From Fimbriimonadaceae bacterium (GTDB taxonomy: Bacteria > Armatimonadota > UBA10988): DNA of 59,178 nt. The notes under the pieces were generated by a model that worked only from the letters and a program-made list of their open reading frames with translations, was not told where the DNA came from and did not search any database. The DNA lies in assembly GCA_020850355.1 (NCBI GenBank), contig JADZEX010000097.1, forward strand, positions 1 through 59,178. Direction: 5' to 3'. The translations under genes were made by a program, and so were the position numbers. The first letter of the stretch is position 1; each line of letters opens with the position of its first letter. Below are positions 100 to 42,179 of the stretch, in pieces.

Positions 100-141
100 G
101 GCGGCGTCGGCCACCGCAACGGTTGCCGCTACATCGCCATT

Positions 142-185
142 CGGGTCAGGACCATTTATGGAGTACCATAAATGGTCCTGACCCG
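142..185. repeat. Perfect 20-bp inverted repeat with AGTA loop (unit C hairpin)
   Basis: Arms 142-161 and 166-185 are exact reverse complements of 20 bp around the loop AGTA. A diverged counterpart with the same AGTA loop lies at about 20404-20442, at the equivalent place in the other repeat copy. It may be a REP-like hairpin, a terminator or a protein-binding site. It sits 66 bp before the DUF2071 start and has no T tract. Confidence 0.75.
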
Positions 186-19986: not shown

Positions 19987-20052
19987 GGCGTCGGCAATCG
20001 CGAGGGTTGCCGCTACAGGAGCGCCGCCGGTCTGCGCTTGCCAACCCACCAC

Positions 20053-20142
20053 CCCCAGCCTGCTCGTCCTGAGGAGGCCGCAGGCCGTCTCGAAGGGCGA
20101 GGTTGGCGACGGTGGGCGGATCGGATGGGATCGGGTGCCTGG
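20053..20142. repeat. Composite repeat unit A, copy 1
   Basis: This copy shares the block CTGAGGAGGCCGCAGGCCG, then TCTCGAAGGGCGAGGTTGG and GGATCGGATGGGATC, with copies at 20186 and 20504. It is the most diverged at its 5' end. No B unit follows it. Confidence 0.8.
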
Positions 20143-20185
20143 CCGACATGGCGAGGTCGAGCCCAGGGCTTCCTCAACCCATCTA

Positions 20186-20275
20186 CCCCAACCCGCTTGT
20201 CCTGAGGAGGCCGCAGGCCGTCTCGAAGGGCGAGGTTGGCGACGGTGGACGGATCGGATGGGATCAGGCGCCTGG
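20186..20275. repeat. Composite repeat unit A, copy 2
   Basis: Near-identical to copies 1 and 3 and directly followed by unit B (20275) and unit C (20378), giving the complete A-B-C arrangement of this repeat. Confidence 0.85.
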
Positions 20276-20360
20276 CTGCCACCGCACCGTCGTGCCCAGG
20301 GCGTTGCCCTGGGCTTGCTTGAGTCGCCCCTTCGGGGCTTCCGGAGGGCGCAGCGCGATC
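20275..20360. repeat. Composite repeat unit B, copy 1 (double hairpin)
   Basis: It contains the 9-bp palindrome GCCCAGGGC-GTT-GCCCTGGGC (20294-20314) and the tight GCCCCTTCGGGGC hairpin. Similar copies are at 20595-20664 and at the window start. Confidence 0.85.
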
Positions 20361-20377
20361 TCCACCGCTGCTGCGGT

Positions 20378-20447
20378 CTGGCTGGACGTGGTGGCAACGA
20401 AAACGGGTCAGGACCGGCGGAGTACCGTCAGTCCAGACCCGTGTTTC
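20378..20447. repeat. Composite repeat unit C with imperfect hairpin
   Basis: The GGCTGGACGTGGTGGC block and GAAAACGGGTC are shared with positions 67-99. The following imperfect inverted repeat has the same AGTA loop as the perfect hairpin at 142-185. Confidence 0.75.
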
Positions 20448-20503
20448 GCCGCCGGTCCGTGGGGGGCTGAGCGGCGTGGCCGCTCTGCTCCTCCGCCCAC
20501 AAA

Positions 20504-20664
20504 CCCCAACCCGCTTGTCCTGAGGAGGCCGCAGGCCGTCTCGAAGGGCGAGGTCGGCGACGGTGGACAAACCGGGCTGGGGTCGGGTGCCTCGCTGCCA
20601 CCGCACCGTCGTGCCCAGGGCGATGCCCTGGGCTTGCTTGAGTCGCCCCTTCGGGGCTTCCGGA
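20504..20664. repeat. Composite repeat units A (copy 3) and B (copy 2), interrupted by the IS
   Basis: Unit A (20504-20593) is followed by unit B (20595-20664) with the palindrome GCCCAGGGC-GAT-GCCCTGGGC at 20613-20633. The repeat stops six bases before the left end of the insertion sequence, so the expected C unit is absent on this side. The 19987-20670 gap consists essentially of this repeat array. Confidence 0.85.
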
Positions 20665-20691
20665 ATGGTGTGAACCCCTCCGTTTGTACAC

Positions 20692-21540
20692 CTAAGGCCC
20701 CACGGACCGAACGGCCAGGGCCTCTTCGAACTCGCAGGGCGGGACGTAGCCCAGCGACGAGTGTAAGCGCTTCTGATTGTACACATCGTCGATGAACCGC
20801 GCCAAGTCGGCTTCGGCCTCGTCGATGTCCTGGTACTCCTGCAGATACACCTCCTCCACTTTGAGCGTCCGGAAGAACGACTCCGCTCGCGCGTTGTCCC
20901 GCGGCCGACCCTTGCCTGACATGCTGATCTGCGCGCCGGCCGCCAGCAGCCGCTCGACGTAGTCGCCGCAGGCGTACTGCACCCCGCGGTCGCTGTGGTG
21001 GATGAACCCCGCCGCCGGCCGCCGGGCCAGCAGCGCCCGTTCGAGGGCTGCCAACGGCAGCCGGGCGTCGGTGTTGCGGGACAGCTCCCAGCCGATCACC
21101 CGCCGCGAGTAAGCGTCCAACACCGCGGCCAGGTAGCAGAACTCGCGCGGCAGGCGGATGTAGGTGATGTCCGCCACCCAGACCTGGTTCAGCGCCCGCG
21201 GCGGGTTGGCCGGCAGCAGGTTCGGCCACACGTGCAGCCCGTGCGCGCTGTTCGTGGTCCGCACCCAGCGCCGCCGCGGCCGGCATTGCAGGCCGCTTTG
21301 CCGCATGATCCGCTGCACCCGTTTGTGGTTGATGCCCCAGCCCTGGCGGCGCAGTTGCGCGGTTACCCGCCGGTAGCCGTAGCCCGGGAAGTCGAGCAGG
21401 AGACGCTCGATCTCCTCGCGCAACAGGCTGTCGCCCAGCTCGCGGCCGGCCAACTCGCCACCCTGATAGTAGTAGCTGCCGCGGCTCACCCCGAGCAGCC
21501 AGCAGCACCGCTCGACGGCCAGTTCGGGATGGGCGGTCAC
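20692..21540 (-). CDS. IS3-family transposase OrfB (DDE integrase domain)
   Basis: The 282-residue rve integrase domain has the DD(35)E triad: Asp in V-W-V-A-D-I-T-Y, Asp in H-H-S-D-R-G-V-Q-Y and, 35 residues later, Glu in N-A-R-A-E-S-F-F. An HTH_21-like segment precedes it. The GTG start at 21540 overlaps the OrfA stop (GTGA). The OrfB frame is also open upstream of the GTG back to about 21588, as needed for an OrfAB fusion. Confidence 0.9.
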   Translation of the reverse strand: MTAHPELAVERCCWLLGVSRGSYYYQGGELAGRELGDSLLREEIERLLLDFPGYGYRRVTAQLRRQGWGINHKRVQRIMRQSGLQCRPRRRWVRTTNSAHGLHVWPNLLPANPPRALNQVWVADITYIRLPREFCYLAAVLDAYSRRVIGWELSRNTDARLPLAALERALLARRPAAGFIHHSDRGVQYACGDYVERLLAAGAQISMSGKGRPRDNARAESFFRTLKVEEVYLQEYQDIDEAEADLARFIDDVYNQKRLHSSLGYVPPCEFEEALAVRSVGP

Positions 21541-21890
21541 CGCGTCGCGGATCCACTCGCACCGCTCCGCGGGCGGGAGCCCCCCTTTTCCACGGCTCGC
21601 CGCAGCAGGTCCAACTCCAGCGCGGCGTGGCCCAGCGCGGCCTCCAAGGAGGCAATCCGGGCCTCGGCGGCACGCAGGCTGCGTTCGGCCTGGTGTTCGC
21701 CGGCCTGGTCACCGTCGGCGAAGGCGTCCTCGCCCTGCACCGCGTAGACTTCCCGCCAGCGCTCGACCACGCTGCGGCACAGGCCGTGCTCGCGGACGAC
21801 GTGCACGATGCGGGTTTCGCCGCGCGCGATCCGCCGGCAAATGTCGAGCTTGAACTCACGGCTGAACGTCCGACGCAGCTTGGCAGACAT
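21537..21890 (-). CDS. IS3-family transposase OrfA (helix-turn-helix)
   Basis: The 117-residue HTH_Tnp_1 protein (S-R-E-F-K-L-D-I-C-R-R-I near the N-terminus) has a leucine-rich coiled coil at 65-100. At 21580-21589 the coding strand reads AAAAGGGGGG. A -1 slip on AAG-GGG continues into the OrfB frame (G-L-P-P-A-E-R-C-E-W), giving a fusion transposase of about 385 residues as in other IS3 elements. Confidence 0.85.
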   Translation of the reverse strand: MSAKLRRTFSREFKLDICRRIARGETRIVHVVREHGLCRSVVERWREVYAVQGEDAFADGDQAGEHQAERSLRAAEARIASLEAALGHAALELDLLRRAVEKGGSRPRSGASGSATR

Positions 21891-22030
21891 GCCAGCATCC
21901 TTCGTGGCGGCCCGGCGCCGTCCTGCGCCGACCGCCTGTCAACGGCCGCTGGTGAGGAACCCAAGGTGTACAGCGGTAGGGGGTCAGCCCATGTGGGCGC
22001 CGATGCCTGCAATGCTCTTGCCGCCCCCGC

Positions 22031-23644
22031 TCAGCGCGCGCCGGCGGCGCGGAGGCGGGTGGCGATGGGGGCGTGGCCGTTGGTCTCGGCCCAGACCAGG
22101 GGGCGGGCCCAGGCGGCGGCCGCGGCGGTGGGGTCGGCGCCGCGGGCCAGAAGCAGTTCGGCGGCGGCCAACTGGCCCTCGCGGGCGGCCCAGCCGAGGG
22201 GGGTCGAGGCGTACTCGTCATCGGTCGCGGTGAGGTCGGCGCCGTGGTCGAGGAAGACGGTCAACTGCGGCAGGTTGCCCTGTCCGGCCAGGCGGTGCGC
22301 CGCGGTGACGCCCAGCCAGCCCGCGCGGCTGGGGTCCAGGCCGGCGGCCAGCAGCTCGGTGGTGGCCTCGACGGTGGGGCCCCAGAACGCCTCGCTGTGC
22401 TGCCAGATGTCGGGTCGGCAACGCGGGAACTGCTCCCAGAGCGCCCGCTCGCCAGTCTCGGCAGCGGCCAGGAAGGTCATCACGTCGCGCCCAACGGCCG
22501 GCTGCTCGGCGATCCGCGCGGCCAACTCAGGCGCCAGCCGGCGGTCGATCAGGTACCACTCCGGCCACTGCGCGCCCTGCGTCAGGAGCCACTCGACCAG
22601 CTCGTGGTGCCCGAAGTGCGCCGCCATCGAGACCACGTTCCCCGACGACTCGACGTCTTGGTTGGGGTCGGCGCCGTGCGCCAGGAGCAGCTCACAGATC
22701 GCCCGGCGGCCCTTGCCGGCGGCCGCGTTGAGCGCACCGCCGCGCGGCGCGATGCCGGGCTCGGGCCGGTTCGGATCGGCGCCGTGAGCCAGCAGCAGCT
22801 CGACCAGTGCGCGATGCCCGGCCTCGGCAGCGACGCGTAGCGGGTAGCCGGAGTAGTAGGTGACGTAGGCCGGCAGCGCCCGGGCCTGGCTCGGATCAGC
22901 GCGCAGCAGTTCCTCGGCGTGCTCGACGTCGCCGAGGTGCGCCGCGACGACCAGGTCGTACTCCGCCCCGCGGGCCAGCAGGTAGCCCACCACGGCGTGC
23001 CAGGAGGCCATCGCCTGGCCGCGCTCGCGGTACCAGGTGCGGTAGTGGTAGTCGCCAAAGGCGACCTCGATCGGCCGCGCGCCGTCGGGCCGCCGCGCGT
23101 CGATCGGCGCGCCGCGCTGCAAGAGTAGGTCGATCAGCCGCAGGTTGCGCGTCAACGCGGCCCAGTGCAGCGGGGAGTTGCCGTTGGCGTCGGCGGCGGT
23201 GACCAGACTGGGATCGGCCGCCAGCAGCGCCGTCACCGCGGCCAGGTCGCGCTCGCGGATGGCGGCGGCGATGGTCTCGCCCGCGGGCCGCACACCGAAC
23301 CGCTCGCGCAGGTACGTCGCCAGCAGCTCCTGCACCGCGGCGTAGCGCGGGTCGTAGGCCGCCCGCTGCGGCGTGCGCGGCAGGCTGAACCCGGCGCTGG
23401 TGACATCGAGCCCCTGCTCCAGCAGCCAGGCGACCATCTCGACATGGCCGCGTTGAATCGCCAAGGTGACCGGCTGGCGGTACCCCTCTTGGCACGTCAG
23501 CAACTCGGGATGCGCCGCCAGCAGGCGTTGCAGCGCCGGCAGGTCACCGTCCCAGGCAGTCTGCAGCACCGTCCAGACCAGGTTCCCCGGCCCGCCGTTC
23601 CAGATCCGCCAGGCGTCGGTCCGCATCCAATCGGGTTGCCGCAT
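22031..23644 (-). CDS. Ankyrin-repeat protein
   Basis: 537 residues, almost entirely ankyrin repeats. Typical units include N-G-N-S-P-L-H-W-A-A, L-L-L-A-H-G-A-D-P-N (twice), L-L-L-A-R-G-A-D-P-T and T-P-L-G-W-A-A-R-E-G. These are protein-interaction scaffolds, and no catalytic domain or signal peptide is visible. ATG 23644 has GGAGGG upstream; a further in-frame start to 23704 adds only basic sequence. The 3' end lies 45 bp from the right end of the IS. It is divergent from the secreted hypothetical protein at 23781. Confidence 0.85.
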   Translation of the reverse strand: MRQPDWMRTDAWRIWNGGPGNLVWTVLQTAWDGDLPALQRLLAAHPELLTCQEGYRQPVTLAIQRGHVEMVAWLLEQGLDVTSAGFSLPRTPQRAAYDPRYAAVQELLATYLRERFGVRPAGETIAAAIRERDLAAVTALLAADPSLVTAADANGNSPLHWAALTRNLRLIDLLLQRGAPIDARRPDGARPIEVAFGDYHYRTWYRERGQAMASWHAVVGYLLARGAEYDLVVAAHLGDVEHAEELLRADPSQARALPAYVTYYSGYPLRVAAEAGHRALVELLLAHGADPNRPEPGIAPRGGALNAAAGKGRRAICELLLAHGADPNQDVESSGNVVSMAAHFGHHELVEWLLTQGAQWPEWYLIDRRLAPELAARIAEQPAVGRDVMTFLAAAETGERALWEQFPRCRPDIWQHSEAFWGPTVEATTELLAAGLDPSRAGWLGVTAAHRLAGQGNLPQLTVFLDHGADLTATDDEYASTPLGWAAREGQLAAAELLLARGADPTAAAAAWARPLVWAETNGHAPIATRLRAAGAR

Positions 23645-23780
23645 GGAGCCCTCCGCGGGCACTGTGCGGCCACCGCCGCGAGTCCGGCGGACCGTGGTTG
23701 ACACGGCGCTGAACGGCGGCTACATGCTGTCAAGGCCTGCTCCACCGGGTCAGCCGGTGGGGCGCTCGAAGGGGATTGCG

Positions 23781-42064: not shown

Positions 42065-42070
42065 GCCATC

Positions 42071-42179
42071 GACGGGTGCGACTGGCGAGCGAACGTGGAA
42101 GCGACCACGAGGGAGCACCCGTGGAACCGGGTCCCCCTGCGGTCGAGCGCCTGGGCCGCCGTTCCCCCGGGCCCAGGAG
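42071..42179 (+). promoter_or_regulatory. ZTP (pfl-motif) riboswitch controlling glyA
   Basis: The aptamer has the pfl signatures: GACTGGCG, a GTGG/CCAC stem, GAGGGAGCACCC closing on GGGTGCG, and, after a linker, CGCCTGGGC (42148-42156). GGCG (42084-42087) can form the known pseudoknot with CGCC (42148-42151). CCTGGGCC (42150-42157) can instead pair with GGCCCAGG (42170-42177), which covers the AGGAG ribosome site (42175-42179). This suggests ligand-activated translation: ZTP/ZMP, made when 10-formyl-THF is scarce, would expose the site. glyA (one-carbon folate supply) is a known ZTP-riboswitch target. Confidence 0.85.

Follow-up and report, generated by a model that had tools for sequence, protein, structure and literature searches.

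Acido-Lenti-1 repeats in a mosaic hairpin array of a Fimbriimonadaceae genome and their probable link to a clade of IS200-like transposases

Positions 1 to 59,178 of contig JADZEX010000097.1 from the Fimbriimonadaceae bacterium assembly GCA_020850355.1 (Armatimonadota), a stretch of 59,178 nucleotides referred to here as the window (contig C104), were found to carry a block of short repeats on the forward strand (20042-20664), in which three units follow one another in the order A-A-B-C-A-B. At the start of the window, the 3' half of unit B is followed by the 5' part of unit C. This locus raises the question of whether the units form one composite family, as proposed in a preliminary description made from the sequence alone, or separate elements that came to lie side by side, and of which enzymes may have moved them. 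The unit counts given in that description (three A, two B and one C in the block, with a further B and C at the window start) agreed with the alignments. The gapless match reported between 1-99 and 20311-20409 was likewise recovered, at 89% identity, and over 1-110 and 20311-20420 the alignment is gapless at 85%.

All units lie on the forward strand. Unit A copy 2 (20175-20280) served as the reference for A comparisons, and copy 1 (20042-20143), the REP half of an A-type REPIN, and copy 3 (20503-20599) are 91% and 90% identical to it. The two B copies (20281-20345 and 20600-20664) share 98% identity, and unit C occupies 20346-20492. Sequence alignment placed the partial B at 1-35, where it is cut by the contig end, and the partial C at 36-104 (84% identity over 36-99). 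The hairpin with an AGTA loop ascribed to unit C is present in the block (20403-20442, fold z -4.4), but the copy at the window start breaks off after about AAAACGGGTC. A perfect 20-bp hairpin of C type with an AGTA loop, GGGTCAGGACC...GGTCCTGACCC (142-185, forward strand, fold z -10.5), is separate from this partial copy and sits behind another repeat, designated D (GCGTCGGC..CGC.A.GGTTGCCGCTACA, 104-133, forward strand), which has nine matches in the regions read. A second copy of D lies just before the block (19988-20017, forward strand), and D also adjoins clusters L063, L066, L068, L076, L081 and L082.

Four open reading frames across the block had no Pfam match at E≤0.1, and coding or degraded genes were rejected as an explanation, in line with the preliminary description. 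Directly after B copy 2 the array is interrupted by an IS3-family element (about 20668-21991), with end sequences (20673-20690 and 21967-21984) that resemble each other. Its OrfB-like transposase (20692-21540, reverse strand; NF033516, 291.6 bits, cut-off 160) is not part of the repeat, and because the element follows B immediately, the C unit usually found after B is missing here. Beside it lies a 557-aa reading frame with many ankyrin repeats (22031-23704, reverse strand), and further along the window a ZMP/ZTP riboswitch was detected at 42068-42163 on the forward strand (RF01750, 58.4 bits).

The repeats are dispersed through the genome, a 6.67-Mb draft of 117 contigs that is 95% complete and may therefore lack some genes. 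BLAST gave 54 matches to the A probe and 62 to a joint B and C probe, many more than chance would produce; since many of these fall at contig ends, the true copy numbers are probably higher. Mapping of 34 genome regions and the window gave 42 clusters with 61 matches to A, 33 to B and 42 to C; these clusters are composed of A and C (13), B alone (8), all three units (6), A alone (5), C alone (4), B and C (4) and A and B (2). Where units meet, their order and orientation are mostly constant, and B-C junctions from different clusters can be aligned across more than 100 nt. Two clusters, L063 and L065, contain B copies without the C hairpin that follows B elsewhere, though the junction is too untidy to be taken as an empty site. 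Because A, B and C also occur apart, they are separable modules, and the block combines several independent element families in a mosaic. The proposal of a single composite A-B-C family was thus not upheld, while the more general suggestion of a mobile or regulatory structured repeat gained support from repeats that are genome-wide, structured and, at the block, intergenic.

Unit B was identified as Acido-Lenti-1 (Rfam RF01687). The two complete copies in the window exceed the gathering score of 37, with 38.4 bits for the first (core 20295-20339) and 37.9 bits for the second (core 20614-20658), and further copies in the genome also reach it. Folded as single-stranded DNA, they form the 9-bp palindrome (arms GCCCAGGGC/GCCCTGGGC) and the TTCG hairpin expected from the preliminary description, with z values of -4.0 and -4.1; no T-run follows these hairpins in the window sequence. 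The unit is a two-hairpin, REP-like structure in which a palindromic hairpin of 7-9 bp is joined through a linker of roughly 12-14 nt to a second hairpin of 5 bp. Since GT[AG]G does not occur at the hairpin foot in CCCnGGGCGnTGCCCTGGGCTAnnATATnnCGCCCCTTCGGGGCT, the consensus derived from 55 copies, unit B is described as REP-like and not filed as a GTAG REP.

Pairing in unit B is conserved. In an alignment of 55 distinct copies, one of them from the window, 92.5% of the cells are paired and 12 of 13 pairs show compensatory changes, with a covariation of 0.496 against 0.171 for shuffled alignments and at most 0.112 when the partners were slid. Five of the 59 copies listed at the TnpA loci, those with a long first loop (L114, L167, L174, L186 and L203), were omitted from this alignment. 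The search that picked the copies took structure into account and is thus biased towards paired columns. This bias is sidestepped at loci that RF01687 missed, where hairpin enrichment does not depend on a structure-aware search: stems of at least 7 bp occur in 38 of 48 and 36 of 48 flanks, compared with 10 in each of two sets of at most 48 far windows. The doubt that the block might hold the only copies in the genome, with no conserved base-pairing, is thus removed for unit B on both counts. Hairpins at L097, L177, L214, L239, L241 and L246 matched Rfam models of eukaryotic microRNAs with E values well below 1 and scores below gathering, and these matches were set aside.

A search for a transposase of the TnpA_REP type, also suggested in the preliminary description, disclosed only two Y1_Tnp genes in the genome, on contigs C85 and C42, and in each case one of the units flanks the gene. 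The C85 protein (156 aa) is an IS200-like TnpA (NF033573 and PF01797), and the PDB profile matches in the transposase analysis include the ISHp608 transposase. The motif YIANQQHHH of the C85 protein corresponds to Y---Q--HH; in the protein alignment Q125, H128 and H129 are invariant and Y121 nearly so. Proteins of 107 distinct loci carry Y---Q--HH in 102 cases, WQ in 105 and [DN]H[VIT]H in 99, the C85 protein itself reading DHTH and so departing from DH[IV]H. Unit B copies lie on both sides of the C85 gene and are dispersed elsewhere, which is the arrangement of a REPtron, and the genome holds one such tnpA, not the many near-identical full-length elements typical of IS200/IS605 (subclass 1.1).

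The same association was found at 110 TnpA loci chosen by protein alone, namely 30 relatives of the C85 TnpA from its phylum and 80 named loci. The latter come from a genome scan with the protein alignment, which gave at least 578 matches, of which the 80 best were used. RF01687 (cmscan, E≤1) was detected at 20 of the 30 and 42 of the 80, thus at 62 of 110, or at 60 of 107 distinct loci once three duplicates were removed. The four batches of 20 named loci gave similar counts (11, 10, 12 and 9), with the gathering score reached in only 10 of the 80. The motif lies within 200 nt of tnpA at 58 of the 110 loci and on both sides at 32; copies occur on either strand, and the nearest one points outward from the gene in 32 of 51 cases on the 5' side and 35 of 43 on the 3' side. 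According to the record titles, the carriers of RF01687 beside a Y1 gene include Armatimonadota, Verrucomicrobiota, Planctomycetota, Bacteroidota and others. Arcicella rosea (L227) and Dyadobacter (L190) are among the organisms whose loci have the motif. Stems of at least 8 bp are present within 150 nt of tnpA in 65 of 106 upstream and 64 of 103 downstream flanks. In windows farther than 600 nt away the shares are 3-8% and 4-12%, respectively, and shuffling of the flanks gives 30 of 1060.

A covariance model, R1, was built from 55 copies (54 from TnpA loci and one from the window). Of the 47 distinct loci without an RF01687 match, it recovered the motif at 42 (E≤0.01), the remaining five of these held-out loci giving no match. 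At the same threshold it was found at 4 of 47 control loci, which comprised 20 loci from weaker TnpA matches and 27 of 30 RAYT loci. RF01687 itself was found at one of 20 RAYT loci searched out of the 30, where it lies over 1 kb away from the gene. At least 18 of the 20 weaker matches carry Y---Q--HH (L304 lacks the first H of the HH pair and L307 was unread), which makes them a sister clade, with HLVWxTxxR, and a less independent control than planned. Only two of them, L302 and L309, have an R1 match (E≤0.01), in both cases beside the gene. As the sister clade mostly lacks the motif, the association with unit B belongs to the sub-clade ending in ...DERYxWD and not to all Y---Q--HH proteins. 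Many of the 17 sister loci examined show other flanking hairpins or inverted repeats, and for this reason REPs may be present in subclass 1.2 beyond the sub-clade linked to unit B. Such hairpins at L293-L312 include CCCCCGATTAAAATCGGGGG and GAGCACCCGATATGAAATCGGGTGCTC, in several cases with copies in inverted orientation on the two sides.

Gene and motif also co-occur at the level of whole genomes. In Armatimonadota (251 genomes), RF01687 is present in 28 of 35 genomes with a TnpA at E≤1e-28 against 22 of 216 others; at E≤1e-10 the counts are 38 of 75 against 12 of 176. In Verrucomicrobiota (194 genomes, the phylum of the Verrucomicrobiaceae genome that contributed locus L163), it is present in 32 of 37 genomes with a strong TnpA match against 11 of 157 without TnpA at E≤1e-25, and in 30 of 35 against 11 of 157 when two genomes whose tnpA was known beforehand are left out. 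The 12 Armatimonadota and 11 Verrucomicrobiota genomes that have the motif without a TnpA at these thresholds count against the proposed link. Fisher tests, which ignore shared ancestry, gave p values of 3e-17 (Armatimonadota) and 4e-22 (Verrucomicrobiota). Up to about 20-30 copies of RF01687 occur per genome, some in tandem and some far from tnpA, and none was detected in 14 control genomes.

Unit C is connected with the second Y1 gene. The C42 protein contains YVERNP and is RAYT-like (PF01797; NF047646 at 69 bits, below the cut-off of 80), and its gene is flanked by 19-nt inverted repeats, the core of which is that of unit C, and has AAAGGGGTCAGGACCCTTT / AAAGGGTCCTGACCCGTTT around it; the end AAACGGGTCAGGACC is common to the unit and the gene flank. 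The 14-mer AACGGGTCAGGACC has 21 sites in the genome, one of them being the C42 gene flank; among the 250 other genomes sampled from the phylum, six have a single site. TIRYT transposases have been described with GGGGWSAS terminal inverted repeats (PMC3733652). The C42 locus resembles them in having inverted repeats of this type around a Y1 gene, AAAGGGGTCAGGACCCTTT at one end, and dispersed copies that match the gene's own repeat; it differs in that most unit C copies have CGGGTCAG, which departs by a single base from the GGGGWSAS consensus. Unit C shows this end type in dimeric form together with a hairpin, and its best interpretation is a TIRYT-type dimer of the terminal inverted repeat that belongs to the C42 gene. 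Inverted repeats of their own, 10-24 nt long and often with GGGGTCAG or GGGGACAG cores, are present at many of the 30 RAYT loci.

Unit A alone folds no better than its shuffles (z 0.03 and -0.57). Its layout is GTCCTGAG, a stem and TCGAAGGGC, then the same inverted; A with an inverted A behind it is seen in several clusters, and six stem sequences occur between unchanged feet. From this organisation unit A is taken to be a REPIN (REP plus inverted REP), its palindromy being that of the REPIN. The core GTCCTGAG...TCGAAGGGC, at 20199-20231 on the forward strand in copy 2, has 44 exact sites in the genome, none for the reversed control and one in the other 250 Armatimonadota genomes. No cognate RAYT was seen for it, neither Y1 gene of the draft genome being flanked by A. 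The core was absent from all 49 genomes of named loci, and a looser pattern was found in 5 of 201 genomes from the phylum of the genome carrying L158 (titled Chloroflexi), with one or two sites each and no partner. Repeats like GTCCTGAGC...TCGAAGGAC are probably common in other bacteria.

It is very probable that the block was built as a mosaic from at least three independent, non-autonomous hairpin elements linked to single-strand (Y1/HUH) transposases, unit B belonging to the IS200-like TnpA, unit C to a RAYT/TIRYT-type enzyme, and unit A being a REPIN of a third type. In the IS200/IS605 and TnpA_REP groups, hairpins and nearby guide sequences determine where the HUH enzymes cut single-stranded DNA (PMC8266576). 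By analogy with these enzymes, the C85 TnpA most likely binds the unit B hairpins in single-stranded DNA at replication forks; it would cut beside them and rejoin B elsewhere, giving rise to solitary B copies. Unit C would be mobilised by the C42 transposase, and unit A by a transposase outside those found in the genome. The A-B-C order probably arose when elements inserted beside one another and were duplicated in tandem. Unit B hairpins may also have a secondary role in the host.

The other readings of these data were weighed against this mosaic of transposase-linked elements. That A-B-C is a single MITE-like composite mobile element would fit the mostly constant order and orientation at unit contacts and the long B-C junction alignments, yet with all three units together in so few clusters, each unit found alone in others, and B and C matching the flanks of two different transposase genes, it is disfavoured by the cluster composition and seems very improbable. 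No better placed is the view that the units are ordinary terminators or BIME-like regulatory sites for protein binding, without mobility: intergenic hairpins near gene ends are common, and BIMEs and REPs are described as binding several proteins (PMC2817692), but the unit B hairpins lack a T-run and the position of the motif tracks one transposase clade across phyla.

An RNA role for Acido-Lenti-1 deserves somewhat more weight, although it too appears unlikely. The motif would in that case be a genuine small RNA, or an RNA structure travelling with or regulating the transposase, such as a UTR hairpin or an antisense of tnpA. Rfam files RF01687 as 'Gene; sRNA' with role unknown, and Weinberg et al. 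(2010; PMC2864571) listed it as probably RNA and not cis-regulatory, from Acidobacteria and Lentisphaerae; stem-loops with UUCG-type loops would suit such a role, as would a position only tens of nucleotides from tnpA. The copies, however, lie on both sides of the gene, on either strand, in tandem and dispersed, a layout of REPs and not of an RNA gene. A reading considered likely is that Acido-Lenti-1 is the single-stranded DNA substrate of a widespread domesticated clade of IS200-like HUH enzymes. The two would make up a new REPtron type with double hairpins that occurs in many phyla, and whose elements are stacked in this genome with those of other Y1 systems in mosaic arrays.

Relative to known systems, the C85 clade shares Y---Q--HH, WQ, a length of about 150 aa and the HUH core with TnpA_Y1 subclass 1.2, an assignment made by motif only. 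Quentin et al. (2018; PMC6006769) defined this subclass by Y---Q--HH, gave 'no' for its REPs in their Table 1, described it as generally without IS200 end structures and associated known REPs with the Y---NP class; the clade described here differs in its conserved flanking double hairpins. Like the REPs, REPINs and REPtrons of TnpA_REP (RAYT), unit B is a short palindromic intergenic repeat with many copies, found on both sides of a low-copy Y1 gene, but differs in its double hairpin, in lacking a GT[AG]G foot and in its transposase, which is Y---Q--HH and not Y---NP. Unit B passes the gathering score of Acido-Lenti-1, and the difference from that family as filed, an RNA of Acidobacteria and Lentisphaerae, is that here it behaves as a DNA repeat scattered through the genome and placed beside a Y1 transposase gene. 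No paper linking Acido-Lenti-1 to a transposase was found in the open-access literature searched, and a 2026 article (PMC13298647) states that little is known of its function.

If the proposed link is correct, an orphan Rfam 'sRNA' would gain a partner protein and a testable role at the DNA level, and a transposase subclass described as repeat-less would gain its missing substrates. Annotations of Acido-Lenti-1 as a non-coding RNA would then need rethinking, as would proposals that rest on them, such as a part in protease regulation in Tannerella (PMC13298647).
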